Virus record (IMG/VR): IMGVR_UViG_3300025652_000606
Coordinates: 1-22,602 of that record
Strand: one strand, 5' to 3'
DNA: 22,602 nucleotides
From: a virus
The position numbers and the translations under genes were made by a program. Shown piece after piece: positions 8,145-14,898 of the stretch. The notes under the pieces were generated by a model that did not search any database, was not told the origin of the DNA, and saw nothing but the letters and a program-made list of their open reading frames with translations. Positions within the stretch are counted from its first letter, which is position 1. Each line of letters begins with the position of its first letter.

Positions 8145-8376
8145 TACAATAGAAGTAAAAGTAGAAGACGTACGCTTTGACGTGCAAATGGATGGAGACT
8201 GCCCACAAGATATGTTCGCTGATGGGGTATGGCTCGTTGGCTCTGTTCAGGAGCTATCGTGCGTACTAGACCCTAAGGTCTACGATGCAATCGAAGAGGC
8301 AGCACGGCAAGAAATCATAGAGAGGCAGTACGATGGTGCCATTGAGAGATACATGGAGGAGTGCATAGGATCATGA
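8131..8376 (+). CDS. Small acidic early protein
   Basis: This is an 81-residue acidic protein (MKPNNTIEVKVEDVRFDVQM...) with a beta-prone N-terminal half, then a helical, arginine/glutamate-rich C-terminal half. Function unknown. It begins inside the end of the upstream gene (14 bp overlap) and ends in an ATGA overlap with the next gene, so it belongs to the coupled string 7660-9180. Confidence 0.7.
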   Translation: MKPNNTIEVKVEDVRFDVQMDGDCPQDMFADGVWLVGSVQELSCVLDPKVYDAIEEAARQEIIERQYDGAIERYMEECIGS

Positions 8377-8801
8377 CTAAAGAACAGAAAGAAAATATAC
8401 AGAAACAGAGTATGTGCTACGCTGATGTTAGCAGTGCGTACTACCTAGGAAAGCAGTTCGCCCTTAAGTACGGGAGTCAAGTGCTAGGCACAAGCTCTAC
8501 ACCATTCGGAGCGAAGCAGGCTAAGAACCGACTTCAAAACCAGCTTGGCGTAAAGGGCGTAAAGGTTGTACCACTAGAGAAGGTGGTGCAGGATCATAGA
8601 GAACTGATGGAAGGCCCATGCGGTAAGAAGATCATGAGGGCAGTCGGTCAAGAAAAATACGATGCTGAAGTCCAGAGGATAGCCGATCTCCTGAACCCAG
8701 TCAACGATAGCGAAATGGAGGCCGTTAAGGAGGTAGCATTGGACAACCTTATGAAGAAGGCAGTAATAGAAGCCATACCATGGGGGACACTAGTAAGATA
8801 G
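8373..8801 (+). CDS. Hypothetical early protein
   Basis: This is a 142-residue mixed-charge protein starting MTKEQKENIQKQS. The ATG at 8373 overlaps the previous TGA and is downstream of GGAGGAG; a GTG at 8361 in frame is less likely. The middle (LGTSSTPFGAKQAKNRLQNQ) is basic and the C-terminal half helical. I recognise no domain. It sits in the block of small genes before the structured leader and helicase. Confidence 0.75.
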   Translation: MTKEQKENIQKQSMCYADVSSAYYLGKQFALKYGSQVLGTSSTPFGAKQAKNRLQNQLGVKGVKVVPLEKVVQDHRELMEGPCGKKIMRAVGQEKYDAEVQRIADLLNPVNDSEMEAVKEVALDNLMKKAVIEAIPWGTLVR

Positions 8802-9052
8802 TTATGAAGTACAACACAGAAAAAATACGCGCACTAGGCATAGATCCTAGTGACCTGAGAACTTCCCTGTACTGCCACTGGGAGATGGAGAAGCTGGACT
8901 ATCACCTAGACAGGATGGTTTCCTACTTGATTGAGAACAGGTTACCACACGCACTGTCCCGTATAGTGATTGATGAGATCGAGGAAGGCAAGGATGAGCT
9001 AAGGAAGATCTTCGATTACTTGTACAAAAAGGAGGGTCGGCTTGACAAATGA
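8780..9052 (+). CDS. Small helical early protein
   Basis: This is a 90-residue protein from the ATG at 8780 (preceded by AGAAG at 7 nt), or 82 residues from a second ATG at 8804, just after the previous stop. The choice is not decided by the sequence. The body (EMEKLDYHLDRMVSYL, then EIEEGKDELRKIFDYLYKK) is strongly helical and acidic. Function unknown. Its TGA overlaps the next ATG (ATGA at 9049). Confidence 0.7.
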   Translation: MGDTSKIVMKYNTEKIRALGIDPSDLRTSLYCHWEMEKLDYHLDRMVSYLIENRLPHALSRIVIDEIEEGKDELRKIFDYLYKKEGRLDK

Positions 9053-9180
9053 AGAAAGTTTGTCCAATTCCTTTCTGCGGTAGTAATACCATCAAAGATA
9101 GTTGCACCCTTGCCTTGAAATCAGGCGTACCTAGTGGTACAAGGGACATCGGTTACCAGAACTCGCCCGTCTGGTTGTAA
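9049..9180 (+). CDS. 43-aa cysteine-containing small ORF, possible leader peptide
   Basis: This frame is ATGA-coupled to the preceding gene and runs 43 codons. The N-terminus VCPIPFCGSNTIKDSC has three cysteines and a CP..FCGS pattern that faintly recalls Lar-type or zinc-ribbon peptides, but a full four-ligand site is absent. GGAGG lies 12 nt upstream. The frame runs through strongly base-paired RNA (hairpin with GTAA loop 9079-9090; three-way junction 9107-9145; hairpin 9155-9175). It may therefore be a translated leader peptide, a true small gene, or a chance frame over structured RNA. Confidence 0.45.
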   Translation: MKKVCPIPFCGSNTIKDSCTLALKSGVPSGTRDIGYQNSPVWL

Positions 9181-9332
9181 AAAGGATTGCGAAAGCAATG
9201 GCTAATGCCTGACCAAAGAGGATCATAGTGACGTACCGAGTCCTCTCAGGCACCAGCTCTACATTGACTCATTACAGGGATCAAGGATAGAATGGTTAGT
9301 CCCTTGTAGGGGCTAATTGTACCCAGATACAA
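9079..9332 (+). ncRNA. Multi-helix structured RNA leader upstream of the helicase
   Basis: On the plus strand, many perfect helices are visible: GGTA/TACC with GTAA loop (9079-9090); a linker-free three-way junction (CCCTT 9107-9111 with AAGGG 9141-9145, enclosing 9112-9126 and 9127-9140); ACCAGA/TCTGGT (9155-9160 with 9170-9175); ATTGC-GAAA-GCAAT (9186-9199); a 12-position stem 9201-9212/9246-9257 with 10 pairs; an inner stem 9218-9224/9238-9245 with one bulge; TAGTCCC/GGGGCTA (9297-9303/9309-9315); and TTGTA/TACAA (9317-9332). A 10-nt long-range helix, TACAAGGGAC (9138-9147) with GTCCCTTGTA (9299-9308), competes with two of these. There is no U-run. I do not recognise the class. Confidence 0.55.
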
Positions 9333-9366
9333 CGATCTATTAAGGGATTAGAGGACAGATTAAACT

Positions 9367-10722
9367 ATGGGATTAACGATAGAACAACAGCACGTGATGG
9401 ACTGTATGCTTACTGGCAGACAGGGCAGTAGACTAATATGCTTTGGGTCAGCGGGTACAGGTAAGTCATTTCTGATAAAAGAAATAGTTAAGACATTCGA
9501 TTGCTCGATCTTAGCAGCACCAACTGGCAGAGCAGCTACTATCATTGGAGGCAGTACAATACATAAGTTGTTCGGGATACCATCAACTCATCCAATCAAT
9601 CCAGACTTCAAGGAGCAGCCAGTACACAGGCAGAGGTTCAACGATCCATCTTGCAGGTACTTCGGAGGACAACGCAAAGAAGTTCTGAAGCACTGCTCGT
9701 GGATTATATTGGATGAGATTGGTATGGTAAGATGCGATCACCTTGACTTCATTGAAGCAGCGTTACGTAAAGCTCGTGGATCTTTCGAGCCATTCGGAGG
9801 AGCTAAGATTCTGTGCGTTGGAGATGTCGGCCAGCTTCCACCAGTTGCCCAGGGCAGAGATGCTAGTACATTAAAACGTTACGGTTACAAGGCTCCGTTT
9901 GGATTATTCCAGAGCAATGTACTGAACACTGACTTTCATCAGGTCAGTCTTACAAAAGTAATACGCCAGGAAAATCCTATCGAGGCTAACATCTTGAACA
10001 GAATTAGAGTGGGTGCTCAGACCAGAATAGATATTGACTATCTGAATACACGTGTGCAAGCACCTGATAGTAAAGCAGTTATACTGACTCCACTCAGGAA
10101 GATACGTGACGATATCAATAAGAAAAAACTTAATGACTTACAAGGAAGGCTATTGTGTTTTTCCGCCACTCGAACTGGATCGTTCAAGAAGAAGCGAGAC
10201 AAGGATCTTCCTATCGAAGAGAAGATATACTTGAAAGATTATTGTCGTGTAGTTGTGAAAGCAAACATGACCTATAAGGTGATGGGAGTTACGCAAAGGA
10301 TTGTGAACGGAGACACTGGTACGTTTTATGGAGTTGATAAGCGTGGCCGTATGATTATTCACAGGGACTCCGACAACAGCATGATTTACCTAAAGCCTAA
10401 GAAGTACCAAGACAGTACGCCCAAGGTTACGATTGAGGATGGAGAGGAAAAGGTTACCGACGAGAGCAAGGGTCAGTACATTCAATTCCCTATCCAGCTA
10501 GGGTACAGCATGACGATCCACTCCAGCCAAGGAAGTACGCTGAACAAGGTACATCTACAGCTACCAAGGCAAGTACCTATGGCTCCAGGTCTAACTTACA
10601 CAGCCTTATCTAGAATCAAATCGTTCTCTGACTTGACATTATCCAGAGATCTGCAAATGTACGATATATGGAGCGACGTTTCCGCTTCTTTTCACCATCA
10701 ACAGTACGAGTTTAGTTACTAG
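9367..10722 (+). CDS. Pif1/RecD-like SF1 DNA helicase
   Basis: This 451-residue enzyme should be an ATP-driven 5'-3' helicase of the Pif1/RecD/Dda superfamily 1B group, acting in phage replication or recombination. The motifs appear in order: Walker A GSAGTGKS (27-34), APTGRAA (51-57), the Pif1-typical STIHKLFGI (63-71), DEIGM Walker B (116-120), GDVGQLPPV motif III (152-160), the UvrD_C_2-type motif YSMTIHSSQGSTL (380-392) and YTALSRIKS motif VI (411-419). A short insertion (about 260-370) carries basic and beta-rich segments. GAGGAC lies 10 nt before the ATG, at the end of a structured leader, so translation may be regulated. The next gene is the ssDNA-binding protein. No primase or polymerase domain is fused. 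Confidence 0.93.
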   Translation: MGLTIEQQHVMDCMLTGRQGSRLICFGSAGTGKSFLIKEIVKTFDCSILAAPTGRAATIIGGSTIHKLFGIPSTHPINPDFKEQPVHRQRFNDPSCRYFGGQRKEVLKHCSWIILDEIGMVRCDHLDFIEAALRKARGSFEPFGGAKILCVGDVGQLPPVAQGRDASTLKRYGYKAPFGLFQSNVLNTDFHQVSLTKVIRQENPIEANILNRIRVGAQTRIDIDYLNTRVQAPDSKAVILTPLRKIRDDINKKKLNDLQGRLLCFSATRTGSFKKKRDKDLPIEEKIYLKDYCRVVVKANMTYKVMGVTQRIVNGDTGTFYGVDKRGRMIIHRDSDNSMIYLKPKKYQDSTPKVTIEDGEEKVTDESKGQYIQFPIQLGYSMTIHSSQGSTLNKVHLQLPRQVPMAPGLTYTALSRIKSFSDLTLSRDLQMYDIWSDVSASFHHQQYEFSY

Positions 10723-10748
10723 TACATAACAAGAAACCAATAAAACAT

Positions 10749-11489
10749 ATGAGAGACACACGATACTGGAAAAAAGACAACGCAAAGGGAGGTTACTGGA
10801 GTAAATGCCGTGACCAAATAAGCAATGAGCAAGCCAATGACGGTAGAGTACTACACAAGTACACTAAGCCTTCACCTGGCGAGAGATGGCAGTACACTAC
10901 AGATAAACTGTTCGGTAATATCGAGTCCGTTTACATCGACAACGGAATGTACGGTGAGGTTCTAAACATAGGACTTCAGAACGATCAAGGAGTAGATGTA
11001 CTTAGCGTACCTGTATGGAAAGACAAAGCCAACGGTAAGTTAGCTGTTGATTTCAAGGGGATCGCTAAGAAAATTCCTAACATCTCTGTTCATTCTCCTT
11101 TGAGTGCAGCTACTTGGATAAACTCTAAGGGAGCTTACACGTTCAAAGATCCACAGGGGAATGAGCGTACAATCGTACCTATCTACATCACGATGCAGCA
11201 AGGTGGAGCTAACGTTGCTTCAGCGTTCCCTTATGAGGACGGTAAGTACGTTGGAGTTCCTGAAGCAGATTCTGCTAAGATCGGGGACAAGACGTACTTC
11301 GACTTCTCTAAGCAGAACGACTTCTTCGTGGACACAGTTAATCGCTTCATCCAAGATAATCAATCTGTCTTTGAGGAACGTAAGGCTAATCGCTCCGCGA
11401 CTCCTGCTGAACAGGAAAGTCAAGAGCCTAAGAACATTCCTGTCACAGCTAATGCTGCTGACGATAGCGACGACGATCTACCGTGGTAA
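10749..11489 (+). CDS. Single-stranded DNA-binding protein
   Basis: This 246-residue protein lies directly after the helicase. The first 200 residues are beta-rich with scattered aromatic residues, as in OB-fold proteins. The C-terminus is a disordered, acidic tail ending DDSDDDLPW, the hallmark of phage and bacterial SSBs whose acidic tip recruits partner enzymes. It would coat ssDNA exposed by the neighbouring helicase. Its length is similar to T7 gp2.5 (232 aa), although the sequence is not obviously that family. Identification depends mainly on the acidic aromatic-ended tail and the context. Confidence 0.8.
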   Translation: MRDTRYWKKDNAKGGYWSKCRDQISNEQANDGRVLHKYTKPSPGERWQYTTDKLFGNIESVYIDNGMYGEVLNIGLQNDQGVDVLSVPVWKDKANGKLAVDFKGIAKKIPNISVHSPLSAATWINSKGAYTFKDPQGNERTIVPIYITMQQGGANVASAFPYEDGKYVGVPEADSAKIGDKTYFDFSKQNDFFVDTVNRFIQDNQSVFEERKANRSATPAEQESQEPKNIPVTANAADDSDDDLPW

Positions 11490-11491
11490 GT

Positions 11492-11911
11492 ATGAGTGAA
11501 ACTAAATGGATTCAGGGGAAGCTTGTTAAGCAGGTGTACAAAGATTCTGCTAACAACTTCCAACTTGAGCGTAAAGATGGTTCAACATTCGGCCTCATAT
11601 ACAAAGGTTCTCCTCTCAGTAAATACGAGAGGGGGACTGAGGTGTACGCTACTGACGCTAGTCTGTACATAGACGGTAAGGTTAAGGTGTACAAGACAGA
11701 TGACCCACCTAAGTTCAAGTTCAAGGAAGACACTACAACCTGCATTGATAGCCAGGGTGAAGTCCAGCCAACTCCAACGGTACGTGAACTCACTACCGAA
11801 GAGCTTACGCTCGCTGGAATTGAGCTGTTGTTAGTCAACTCGCTTGACATAGAGGTTCAACAAGTTAGGGTACTTATTCAGGAACTAGCTTTCAAGAAAC
11901 TTTCTGTATAG
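11492..11911 (+). CDS. Hypothetical protein, possibly beta-barrel, next to SSB
   Basis: This is a 139-residue protein. The N-terminal 75 residues are beta-rich with regularly spaced Lys/Tyr (KLVKQVYKDSANNFQLERK, later GTEVYATDASLYIDGK), which could form a small OB-like barrel. The C-terminal part after a Pro/Thr linker is helical (ELTTEELTLAGIELLLVN). I chose the ATG at 11492, 2 bp after the SSB stop, over a GTG at 11483. It may work with the SSB and helicase, but this is inferred only from adjacency. Family not recognised. Confidence 0.7.
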   Translation: MSETKWIQGKLVKQVYKDSANNFQLERKDGSTFGLIYKGSPLSKYERGTEVYATDASLYIDGKVKVYKTDDPPKFKFKEDTTTCIDSQGEVQPTPTVRELTTEELTLAGIELLLVNSLDIEVQQVRVLIQELAFKKLSV

Positions 11912-11914
11912 CGT

Positions 11915-12562
11915 ATGTCAAAAGTGTTAGCCATCGGGGATTTGCATGAGCCTTTTTGCTTAGACAAATACCTCAGGTTCTGTAAGAACGTGGATCGTAA
12001 AGCTGGATGCAACAAAGTTGTACTGATCGGTGATGTCATCGACAACCATTACAGCAGCTACCACGAGACAGACCCCGATGGCTACTCTGCTGGCGAAGAA
12101 CTAGACAGGGCCATACAGAGAATAGGTAAGTGGTACAGGGCTTTCCCTGAGGCTTACGTTTGTATAGGAAACCACGATAGGCTAGTCCATCGCAAGGCTT
12201 ACACAGCAGGAATATCTAAACGCTGGGTCAGAGATTACAGTGAAGTCCTTGATGCTCCTGGCTGGGAGTTCGTTGAGAGCGTTACGATAGACAACGTAGT
12301 GTACTGTCATGGAGATGGCAAGAAAGCTATTCAAAGAGCCAAGCAGGATATGCAATCAGTTGTACAGGGACACTACCATTCTGAGTGCTACGTTCAGTGG
12401 CATACGGGAGCTAAGTGTAAAGTGTTCGGTATGCAGCTAGGATCTGGGATAGACAAGGACAGTTACGCTATGGCTTACGGAAAGTACGGCCCTCATCCAG
12501 CTATAGGATGCGGAGTAGTGCAGCACGGTAAGGTAGCTACTAATTATTTAATGGAATTATGA
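11915..12562 (+). CDS. Calcineurin-like metallophosphoesterase
   Basis: This 215-residue protein has the complete two-metal phosphoesterase signature in order: GDLH (D9, H11), GDVIDNH (D40 and N44-H45), GNHD (residues 85-88), HGDG (132-135) and GHYH (152-155). Such enzymes hydrolyse phosphomonoesters or diesters; relatives include Mre11/SbcD nucleases, protein phosphatases and cyclic-nucleotide esterases. The compact single domain has no cap or SbcD C-terminal extension, so the substrate cannot be named. It starts 3 bp after the previous gene and overlaps the next (Nmad1-like) by ATGA, within the DNA-metabolism part of the operon. A role in nucleic-acid or nucleotide processing is the preferred inference. 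Confidence 0.9.
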   Translation: MSKVLAIGDLHEPFCLDKYLRFCKNVDRKAGCNKVVLIGDVIDNHYSSYHETDPDGYSAGEELDRAIQRIGKWYRAFPEAYVCIGNHDRLVHRKAYTAGISKRWVRDYSEVLDAPGWEFVESVTIDNVVYCHGDGKKAIQRAKQDMQSVVQGHYHSECYVQWHTGAKCKVFGMQLGSGIDKDSYAMAYGKYGPHPAIGCGVVQHGKVATNYLMEL

Positions 12563-12888
12563 CAAAAGAAAAGTTTGAAGAATTCACTAAGAGTTTATTC
12601 TCTAAAATGTCCAATGTACTAAAGGACAAGAACAACGACTACACCGCAATGAGCACTGACGCTTTCGCTAACTTTGAGCAAGCTAGGGAGTACGGAGTAG
12701 ATCCTCTTATCGGACTGTGCGTTCGTATGGGAGACAAGATAAAGAGAGTGCAGACGTTCTGCAAAACTAAATCCCTAGCAGTGGAAGACGAGCACGTTGA
12801 GGATGCCTTCGAGGATATCATCGGGTACTGCACAATAGCTTTAGCAATGATTAAAGAAAAAAAAGAAAACCATATTGATTACCCATGA
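12559..12888 (+). CDS. Nmad1/DUF1599-like protein
   Basis: This is a 109-residue all-helical protein. The pattern KNNDYTAMSTDAFANFE, then IGLCVRMGDKIKRV and later VEDEHVEDAFEDIIGYCTIAL matches what I recall of DUF1599, also called nucleotide modification associated domain 1 (PF07659). This family was proposed from comparative genomics to act in modified-nucleotide systems of phages. Its conserved acidic and DK residues resemble MazG/dUTPase-like all-alpha nucleotide binders. Coupled translation (ATGA) with the metallophosphoesterase suggests the two may act in one pathway. No other base-modification enzyme is visible in the window, so the role is uncertain. Confidence 0.75.
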   Translation: MTKEKFEEFTKSLFSKMSNVLKDKNNDYTAMSTDAFANFEQAREYGVDPLIGLCVRMGDKIKRVQTFCKTKSLAVEDEHVEDAFEDIIGYCTIALAMIKEKKENHIDYP

Positions 12889-13097
12889 ACGAAGACACCT
12901 GTCAAAATTGCAACTGCAACCTAAACCAAGGGTACGTGCTTACCTTTAAGACCCCAAACAAAACGTGTACTGTGGCATTAGACGATGTTGATATGATGCT
13001 GCATGAGGTCTTGGATGAACTTGTTACCCCAGCAATAGAGGGAGTAGGGTACTCCGTAAAGCCAGGACACTTAGATATTTTTTACAGAGAAGAATGA
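12885..13097 (+). CDS. Small cysteine-containing acidic protein
   Basis: This is a 70-residue protein beginning MNEDTCQNCNCNLNQGY, with a CxxCxC cluster at residues 6-11 and a fourth cysteine near residue 28. This could bind one metal ion, but a standard zinc-finger spacing is not seen. The rest is acidic and mixed alpha/beta. It is joined by ATGA overlaps to genes on both sides. Family unknown. Confidence 0.7.
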   Translation: MNEDTCQNCNCNLNQGYVLTFKTPNKTCTVALDDVDMMLHEVLDELVTPAIEGVGYSVKPGHLDIFYREE

Positions 13098-13438
13098 TTC
13101 AAGAACAGTTTAAAGAATTAGCACTACAGGTGAAAGAGATGCTCTCATCTGATTCAGGGTACGTAAAAGAAAGCGTAGCCCCTATGATTGGTGGTGGCTT
13201 TACTGGCGATCTAATGCCAGTGGGCTATCACGTTTTTCCAGCAAGGCAGGTATGCAGAACTGAGCTAGGAAAAACTCTAATGGATGACGTAACTATGTTT
13301 CACCAAAAGGTAATAGACATAGACGATGATAACACTGTGATCGTGTACGCTGAGTCATCTCTCCTGCCTAATGAAACCATTCGGATTCTTGAGATCTGGA
13401 TGCAGAGATTCTTAGAGGAGACAATGTACGAGCTATGA
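13094..13438 (+). CDS. Hypothetical early protein
   Basis: This is a 114-residue protein with helical ends and a glycine-rich middle (PMIGGGFTGDLMPVGYHVFP) of mixed hydrophobic character. I recognise no family or catalytic motif. It is linked by ATGA overlaps to its upstream and downstream neighbours, within the string 12559-13671, so it is probably translated together with the Nmad1-like protein and the nuclease. Confidence 0.7.
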   Translation: MIQEQFKELALQVKEMLSSDSGYVKESVAPMIGGGFTGDLMPVGYHVFPARQVCRTELGKTLMDDVTMFHQKVIDIDDDNTVIVYAESSLLPNETIRILEIWMQRFLEETMYEL

Positions 13439-13671
13439 AGAAGCTAACAGTCAGTGAGGTGTCAGAAGCAATTGAGTTGCTGACTGCTGCTCAGACTTTT
13501 CAAAGTCAGGTAGATGTAATAACGGCCAAGATCACTAGACTGATGGGTGGGGTTAAAGATGACTTGATCCACGAGCTAGTAGACCAAGCTGTTCTCAACA
13601 AAGAATCCGTTGAATGGATTGTTGAGGAGGTACAGAGCTGGGAAAAGTACAGGCAAGAGCTAAAGCTTTGA
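13435..13671 (+). CDS. Small helical protein upstream of the nuclease
   Basis: This is a 78-residue all-helical protein (MKKLTVSEVSEAIELLTAAQ...) with heptad-like hydrophobic spacing that could form a coiled coil. Function unknown. Its TGA overlaps a TTG (TTGA) that is probably the start of the following PD-(D/E)XK nuclease, so the two may be made in fixed ratio and could be partners. Confidence 0.7.
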   Translation: MKKLTVSEVSEAIELLTAAQTFQSQVDVITAKITRLMGGVKDDLIHELVDQAVLNKESVEWIVEEVQSWEKYRQELKL

Positions 13672-14174
13672 TTGAGATAAAGACAACTGAGTCCCAAAGA
13701 AATAAGGCTAAAGAGTTAGCTGAAGAAATGGGATCGCTTAATCACTCTATGCTCAGGGGTGGCGGAAACATTAGAGGGCTTCTAGCAGAGATTGCTTACG
13801 CTGATAAGTTCGGGCTACAGATTGCCAGCACGTACAACTACGATCTTCTGACAAAAAAGGGGAAGCGAGTAGACGTAAAGAGCAAGGGTGGATGGCAAGT
13901 CCCACAGCCTCACCATTGGGTAGCAGTTGAAAGAAGATTTGAACAAGACTGCGACTTTTACGTATTTGCTAGGGTCAGAAAAGACTTAGAGCTAATCTGG
14001 CTACTAGGGTGGATGCCAACTATAGAGTTCAGAAGAACGGCATTACACTTTCCTCCAGGAACACAAGATCCTGACGATCCTTCATTCAGAAATAAGTTAG
14101 ACAATCTTCAAATGAGAAACAGAGACCTTAGACAATTTGATGAGAAACACAGAACTAATTTACCAAGAGCTTGA
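13668..14174 (+). CDS. PD-(D/E)XK-type nuclease, TTG start
   Basis: In this 168-residue protein, GLLAEIAYADKFG supplies the helix glutamate (E41). It is followed by YDLLTKKGKRVDVKSKGG, in which D59 and the D69-V70-K71 triad form the PD-(D/E)XK active site. A beta-rich segment with tryptophans (HHWVAVERR, ELIWLLGW) completes a restriction-endonuclease-like fold. Probable roles are an exonuclease or Holliday-junction-type resolvase in phage recombination or host DNA degradation. The start is TTG, overlapping the previous TGA. The first in-frame ATG is 20 codons later and would still keep the active site. It overlaps the next gene by 35 bp. Confidence 0.75.
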   Translation: MIEIKTTESQRNKAKELAEEMGSLNHSMLRGGGNIRGLLAEIAYADKFGLQIASTYNYDLLTKKGKRVDVKSKGGWQVPQPHHWVAVERRFEQDCDFYVFARVRKDLELIWLLGWMPTIEFRRTALHFPPGTQDPDDPSFRNKLDNLQMRNRDLRQFDEKHRTNLPRA

Positions 14175-14460
14175 GGTAAAAGAATGGCCCCTTCTAAAAG
14201 TAGGAGACGAAAAGTTCTTTGGTTACGTTCTTTCAATGGGAGTAATGCCTAATGATTTTTGCGAAGTTCGGGAATTTAACGATATGCGACAATATGTTGA
14301 CTTTGGATATAGAGATGGATACGAGAGGTACATTTTGCCTAACAATAAAAAACTCAGAAAGGATCTATTGAGATATTTATGGGACAACATGGAGGTAGAA
14401 GTATACTCCAAGTTATGGATTTATAAATTAGAAAACGGGTATAAGGTAGATTTGCCGTAG
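14140..14460 (+). CDS. Hypothetical early protein
   Basis: This is a 106-residue protein rich in aromatic residues, especially tyrosine (VDFGYRDGYERYILP, later YSKLWIYKLENGYKVDLP). I know no family for it. The ATG at 14140 lies inside the end of the nuclease gene in another frame. The sequence suggests an alpha/beta fold with a beta hairpin at the C-terminus. It sits between two nucleases, which hints at DNA processing but proves nothing. Confidence 0.7.
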   Translation: MRNTELIYQELEVKEWPLLKVGDEKFFGYVLSMGVMPNDFCEVREFNDMRQYVDFGYRDGYERYILPNNKKLRKDLLRYLWDNMEVEVYSKLWIYKLENGYKVDLP

Positions 14461-14469
14461 TAATCCAAC

Positions 14470-14898
14470 ATGAACAAGCTTAAACAGTCCGAGATCAAAT
14501 CATTCAGAGAGGAACTCCTAATCCAACAAGGAGGAAGAGATCCTATTACAGGATTGCAGATCAAAGATGCGGTCTTAGACCACGATCATGTCTCAGGACA
14601 CGTCAGATGCGTTCTACAGCGTGAAGTCAATTCATTCGAGGGTAAGGTATGGAATGCGTACAAACGCTTTATACGGCCTCTGGGAGCCTCTTATGAGGAT
14701 GTCCTGATTTCTATCATAGAATACTGGGGTAAAGATTACTCAGAAAATCCTATCCATCCTAAGCACAGAACAGACACAGACAAGGTAGTCAGGGAGTACA
14801 GGCGTAGGATCAATAGAGCTAAAAGACCTCAGACAAAAGAGAAGTACAGAGTCCTGATAAGGGAGTTGACAAAGAAGCCAGAATCACTACAGTCCTAA
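14470..14898 (+). CDS. Endonuclease VII-like HNH/His-Me finger nuclease
   Basis: In this 142-residue protein, DPITGLQIKDAVLDHDHVSG followed by HVRCVLQREVNSFEGK (residues 24-59) matches the core of the recombination endonuclease VII family: the LDHDH catalytic/metal motif (36-40), G-x-V-R (43-46) and the late Asn (54). The enzyme would cut Holliday junctions and branched DNA before packaging. The two pairs of zinc-binding cysteines of T4 endonuclease VII are absent: only one Cys is present, and the position before DPITG has none. The zinc site is therefore lost or replaced. The C-terminal half is basic and arginine-rich (YRRRINRAKRPQTKEKYR). Confidence 0.8.
   Translation: MNKLKQSEIKSFREELLIQQGGRDPITGLQIKDAVLDHDHVSGHVRCVLQREVNSFEGKVWNAYKRFIRPLGASYEDVLISIIEYWGKDYSENPIHPKHRTDTDKVVREYRRRINRAKRPQTKEKYRVLIRELTKKPESLQS

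Follow-up and report, generated by a model that had tools for sequence, protein, structure and literature searches.

A conserved structured RNA absent from Rfam precedes the Dda/PIF1-like helicase gene of an uncultured phage group

The gp32 protein of bacteriophage T4 represses its own mRNA through a pseudoknot in the leader (PMC3014915). In phages and marine samples, comparative genomics has revealed orphan structured RNAs that lie before specific genes, among them manA, wcaG, and PhotoRC-II (PMC2864571). The RNA described here is closest in kind to these orphan phage and marine motifs, to which it is similar in each of these respects. It was located in the window, by which we mean the whole stretch of DNA that was analysed: 22,602 nucleotides of virus DNA from IMG/VR record IMGVR_UViG_3300025652_000606. 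A reading of this DNA from the letters and open reading frames, hereafter the sequence-only reading, had proposed an unrecognised phage RNA, either cis-regulatory or trans-acting, just before the helicase gene. Comparison with shuffled sequences, searches of Rfam, and compensatory changes in related phages all support this proposal. The result is an RNA family that is new to Rfam, is supported by covariation, and, throughout a group of phages known without cultivation, occupies a fixed place ahead of the main replication helicase.

The 22.6-kb record consists of a plus-strand early block, from approximately 6 to 15 kb, flanked by minus-strand genes that include the terminase. The structured RNA sits within the early block, between the stop codon of ORF 8780-9052 and the helicase ORF, 9367-10722, both of which are on the plus strand. 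The upstream ORF is a conserved neighbour that encodes a 90-residue protein; it had no PHROG or Pfam match. The downstream gene encodes a Dda/PIF1-like SF1B helicase (phrog_325, E = 1.3e-56; Pfam PIF1, E = 2.7e-21). ARAGORN detected no tRNA or tmRNA in the 22.6-kb window. The early module that contains the Dda helicase (window 8361-14898) is largely missing from relatives identified by their terminase. The nearest named relative, Phage C75C1, has a DnaB-like replication module instead.

A search with the helicase yielded 23 IMG/VR loci, of which 18 had enough upstream sequence for analysis. The RNA unit, comprising a core and 3' hairpins (9107-9358, plus strand), was present at all 18, on the same strand as the helicase gene and 7 to 108 bases upstream of its ATG. 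The borders of the unit are sharp: the flanks on both sides differ in length and sequence by tens of bases while the unit is kept. On the upstream side, the relatives have one of two unrelated 5' segments, only one of which contains the GGUA-GUAA-UACC hairpin found at 9079-9090 of the window. This hairpin is thus a lineage-specific addition outside the core. On the downstream side, five to six relatives (L012, L014-L016, L019) have a spacer between RNA and helicase that is 50-100 nt longer, together with a different Shine-Dalgarno (SD) sequence, AAGGA. The core is strongly conserved among relatives, unpaired bases included. Moreover, the RNA is more conserved than the fourfold-degenerate sites of the helicase gene in the two relatives compared: identity to the window was 88% versus 58% in L015, and 77% versus 50% in L019.

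Two further hairpins were observed between the RNA and the helicase in some relatives. The first, of 30 bases (CCGCCGATAAG..CTTATGGGCGG), occurs at L014:4939-4968, L018:43-72, and L019:4902-4931. It is present in a single copy per record, its placement in L014 differs from that in L018 and L019, and it looks like a mobile or recombining element. The second, ACTTCTTA...TAAGAAGT, has a variable loop and, in the long-spacer relatives (L012, L014, L015, L016, L018, and L019), precedes the helicase SD close to the ATG; it is absent from the window.

To look for the RNA in other settings, three patterns, each taken from a different part of it, were used together with one gapped pattern and a covariance model. 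Neither the four sequence patterns nor the covariance model found it in any context away from the helicase, and only these phages were matched. Pattern matches in two jumbo phages (L043 and L044) were judged to be due to chance, the anchor words being the sole shared part. Phages related by their terminase, at approximately 80% identity or below and represented by contigs of 20-39 kb that are in many cases incomplete, had neither the RNA nor this helicase, and the same was true of Phage C75C1 (75%), whose record has a DnaB-like helicase. No homologue was found in bacterial genomes using one exact pattern and the helicase profile, nor among GenBank phages and plasmids. Separately, an unrelated 38-kb phage contains only the first ~31 codons of the helicase (L042:5001-5093) followed by other sequence, and does not carry the RNA. 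This helicase fragment is a recombination trace.

Covariation was evaluated using a sequence-only MAFFT alignment of 13 distinct rows (A3). In this alignment, 97.7% of the cells were paired, as compared to 31-45% in register-slid controls. Eight pairs had changed on both sides, as compared to 2.1 for shuffles and 0-3 when the registers were slid. Aligning one indel by hand added the pair 9155/9175, giving nine compensatory pairs across helices P4, P5, P7, and P7b; compensatory changes thus occur in helices that the sequence-only reading had named. When every possible helix was scanned without regard to that reading's model, P7b ranked first, P7 second, and P5 third. When the same scan was applied to coding DNA of the helicase, it yielded at most one helix per scanned segment with two or more covarying pairs. 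Because a control segment can thus yield one such helix, a single one would not have been convincing, and weight was placed on the occurrence of several compatible helices. Mapped on the helicase tree, the exchange in P5, at 9188/9197, requires four changes or more, although this tree is weakly resolved and recombination is possible. Overall, evolution has preserved a structured RNA at this locus, with a conserved secondary structure that has covariation support.

The alignment also identified the functional strand and the nature of the region. The 33 G-U cells, versus a single A-C cell, establish that the plus strand is the functional RNA strand, as had been proposed from the window. The relatives differ by indels that are located in loops and junctions and that disrupt every reading frame, so the region is non-coding. 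It is extremely unlikely that the segment is coding or decayed coding sequence whose structure arose by chance. The window does contain an ORF for 43 residues, 9049-9180, which overlaps the stop codon of the upstream gene (ATGA); in most relatives, however, it is truncated or no longer in frame, in six it lacks a start codon, it gave no family match, and the frame-breaking indels in loops likewise oppose the coding reading. The broken frames in the relatives largely refute the coding reading. The first ~20 codons of the ORF (MKKVCPI...) occur in one lineage only and are truncated in several members. The ORF is possibly a leader peptide, although a chance occurrence is more likely.

Folding energies were less informative. 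For 9049-9370, the z-score was -3.23 and none of 100 shuffled sequences folded as well, a result that agrees with the structure proposed from the window. For the unit itself, 9107-9358, the values were -2.5 on the plus strand and -2.0 on the minus strand. The folding energy of the region is therefore only moderately unusual (z of -2.5 to -3.2). Throughout the whole record, 11 of 374 sliding 240-base windows and strands had z-scores of -2.98 or lower, including coding DNA at 11401-12120. In view of values of -3.2 to -3.8 in several coding windows of this phage, folding energy alone is no proof of a functional RNA, and the original assertion that such a density of helices is unusual was not confirmed. 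Nowhere in the record is folding stronger than in the coding segment at 11401-12120, where both strands at 11881 have z-scores of about -3.4 to -3.8.

The helices named in the sequence-only reading are all in the sequence: the hairpin at 9079-9090 (GUAA, 9083-9086), the junction at 9107-9145, the hairpin at 9186-9199 (GAAA, 9191-9194), and the stem 9201-9212/9246-9257 with its inner stem, 9218-9222/9241-9245. The three-way junction consists of P1 (9107-9111/9141-9145), P2 (9112-9126), and P3 (9127-9140), and is 100% paired in 14 sequences. Its stems are invariant and so provide no covariation, while its loops differ in length and sequence. The junction had been described as linker-free, which is correct for the window; in 7 of 14 relatives, however, a single base (G or A) links P1 and P2. 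P2 is capped by a 7-nt loop, U(G/U)A(A/G)A(U/A)C, that agrees with UGxRA, the consensus of the T-loop, a motif that serves tertiary contacts (PMC7583486). Specifically, all 14 sequences have a 7-nt loop opening with U-(U/G)-N-R-A and closed by a Watson-Crick pair. By sequence, the P2 loop is thus a T-loop motif, and it presumably has a tertiary role.

The remainder of the core contains the helices that covary. In P4 (9155-9159/9171-9175), C-G is replaced by U-A at 9157/9173, and 9155/9175 occurs as A-U, G-U, or U-A. In P5 (9186-9199), the strands are AUUGC/GCAAU or AUCGC/GCGAU, reflecting the U-A/C-G exchange at 9188/9197. Ten of 14 sequences have GAAA as the loop of P5; the rest have GUUU, AUUU, ACA, or AUU. 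With the GUAA hairpin at 9079-9090 missing in 6 of 14 (L004, L013-L016, and L019), the initial emphasis on GNRA loops was not borne out in the relatives. The long stem formed by P7 (9207-9212/9246-9251) and P7b (9218-9222/9241-9245) spans 9207-9251 and contains six pairs with compensatory changes; P7b is closed by the near-invariant loop AUAGUGACGUACCGAGU. Further 3', P9 (9295-9317) is a strong hairpin, GUUAG(U/C)(C/U)CC/GGGGCUAA(U/C), that is 100% paired after hand alignment and varies at three positions, solely between G-C and G-U. P8a (9258-9261/9288-9291) and the short hairpin P10 (9325-9338, AGAU/AUCU) are invariant. Like P1, P2, and P3, these two helices are neither supported nor opposed by covariation. 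A further helix, P8b, is broken in L014 with no compensating change, and covariation gives it no support.

The segment containing P8a also contains a promoter-like sequence, TTGACT-18-TAGAAT (9264-9293). We consider it quite unlikely that the locus is mainly a DNA element, such as an internal promoter or operator or a replication origin before the helicase operon, in which the hairpins are incidental. The block that contains the promoter-like sequence is almost invariant, its P8b helix has no covariation support, and non-coding DNA adjoining a helicase gene is a plausible site for an origin. Nevertheless, the compensatory changes in P4, P5, P7, and P7b and the excess of G-U over A-C cells show selection on pairing of the plus-strand RNA. 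Moreover, the promoter match is at chance level. Its -35 element is conserved but its spacer and -10 element are not: the spacer is 19 in L005 and the -10 element is TAGACG in L019. A sigma-70 promoter at 9264-9293 was rejected as an account of the whole and retained as a rival for the 3' third, for which alone the DNA-element reading may hold.

Searches of Rfam 15 yielded no match at the gathering score in the window; with the threshold relaxed to E ≤ 5, neither the region nor L015 had a match. In L019, the only match was a sub-threshold one to nse_sRNA, outside the unit and on the minus strand. Thus, none of the Rfam families, including group I and II introns, riboswitches, and ribozymes, was matched in three diverged members, consistent with the original statement that the RNA belongs to no known family. 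The RNA family is absent from Rfam and is new within a known kind of RNA. These results also bear on whether the RNA is catalytic, either self-cleaving or a degenerate self-splicing element, and processes the operon mRNA. Its size, its T-loop, its potential to form a pseudoknot, and a core whose unpaired bases are near-invariant would suit a ribozyme, and tRNA-linked HDV-like ribozymes occur in phages (PMC10879173). We nonetheless regard catalysis as improbable: no ribozyme or intron family was matched at E up to 5 in the three diverged members, the topology of P7/P7b does not fit the HDV-like nested double pseudoknot, and there is no tRNA nearby.

A second pairing is possible between UCGGU at 9149-9153 and ACCGA at 9235-9239, the latter located in the near-invariant loop of P7b. 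This candidate long-range pairing is invariant and may represent a pseudoknot or part of a longer helix. Indeed, it extends to an alternative helix, 9143-9153/9235-9244, whose formation excludes P1 and P7b. The alternative helix is 100% pairable in all sequences. Changes on its 3' side are only between C and U opposite an invariant G, and no sequence has a double change. When each form was imposed in turn, the energies were similar, usually within about 3 kcal/mol, with either form being the lower. Because the same strands can form mutually exclusive helices of near-equal energy, the data suggest an RNA built to switch between two forms. The two helices supply a directly testable mechanism. 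More speculatively, and with a rather low probability in our estimation, the RNA could represent a new class of effector-sensing or catalytic phage RNA in which the two invariant, mutually exclusive helices couple the domain containing the T-loop and three-way junction to the onset of helicase synthesis, as a replication switch.

The best explanation of the locus, to which we assign about an even chance, is a bistable, cis-acting 5' leader that controls expression of the helicase. The cis reading is based on the fixed position of the RNA before the helicase and on the SD-like sequence, AGAGGA (9350-9355), in that 9 of 14 sequences have the helicase SD inside the 3' end of the RNA unit. The position at 18 of 18 loci, on the same strand, is that of a cis leader but is not independent of synteny: the whole module is syntenic, and vertical inheritance of a replication module would equally produce this adjacency. 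The synteny, the variable spacer, and the inconsistent SD pairing all weaken the cis reading. The predicted probability of SD pairing ranged from 0.15 to 1.0, being intermediate and inconsistent among sequences. No conserved SD-masking platform was found, and SD masking was rejected as a conserved mechanism. The SD-like sequence is complementary to 9241-9246. As judged by eye, 9240-9246 can pair perfectly with 9350-9356 in the window, and the pairing is restored in L015 and L016 but poor in L002 and L014, so it is not claimed.

The main rival to the cis leader is a noncoding phage RNA that acts in trans on RNAs or proteins of the host or phage. Such an RNA would merely be encoded between two early genes, and would be excised from the operon transcript or transcribed from a promoter of its own. 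We consider a trans-acting RNA possible but the less probable of the two. The sharp borders at 9107-9358 between flanks that vary by tens of bases, the high conservation of the core including its unpaired bases, and the lack of a conserved tie to the helicase SD are as expected of such an RNA. On the other hand, the RNA was never found apart from the helicase, there is no convincing promoter upstream, and there is no terminator downstream, no intrinsic terminator having been detected on the plus strand. If it is trans-acting, this would be a conserved phage noncoding RNA.

As a cis-acting leader, the RNA would be the structured 5' end of the early operon mRNA in this phage clade and would act on the helicase gene. 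Its fold would be a compact domain comprising the three-way junction with its T-loop hairpin, P4, P5, the long P7/P7b stem, and the UCGGU/ACCGA pairing. Strands 9143-9153 and 9235-9244 could then re-pair into the alternative helix, displacing P1 and P7b. An effector would select one of the forms. By analogy with T4 gp32, the likeliest effector is one of the phage's replication proteins, for example the helicase in an autogenous role, although a metabolite or ion is possible. The output would be an altered presentation of the helicase start region by the 3' part of the RNA, or altered processing of the mRNA.

The RNA shares individual features with several known systems. The 7-nt loop of P2 fits the T-loop consensus, as in the T-arm of tRNA and Stem I of the T-box (PMC7583486); this motif is all that is shared, as the RNA has no T-box or tRNA features and no Rfam or ARAGORN match. 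Like the HDV-like theta ribozymes of phages (PMC10879173), it is a phage-encoded structured RNA in non-coding DNA; unlike them, it has no tRNA neighbour, a different helix topology, and no family match. It differs from manA, wcaG, and PhotoRC-II in structure and sequence, there being no Rfam match, and in being linked to a helicase, whereas theirs are genes of metabolism and photosynthesis (PMC2864571). Finally, like the T4 gene 32 leader, it would be a structured, probably pseudoknotted, phage mRNA leader directly before a DNA-replication gene (PMC3014915). The T4 operator is a small pseudoknot that has an A+U-rich tail and lies 67 nt upstream of the start codon (PMC3014915), whereas the present RNA extends over ~250 nt, contains at least eight helices, and is only a putative target of protein binding. 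If the RNA is indeed a leader switch, it would stand beside the T4 gene 32 operator as a rare phage case of structured-RNA control of a replication protein.
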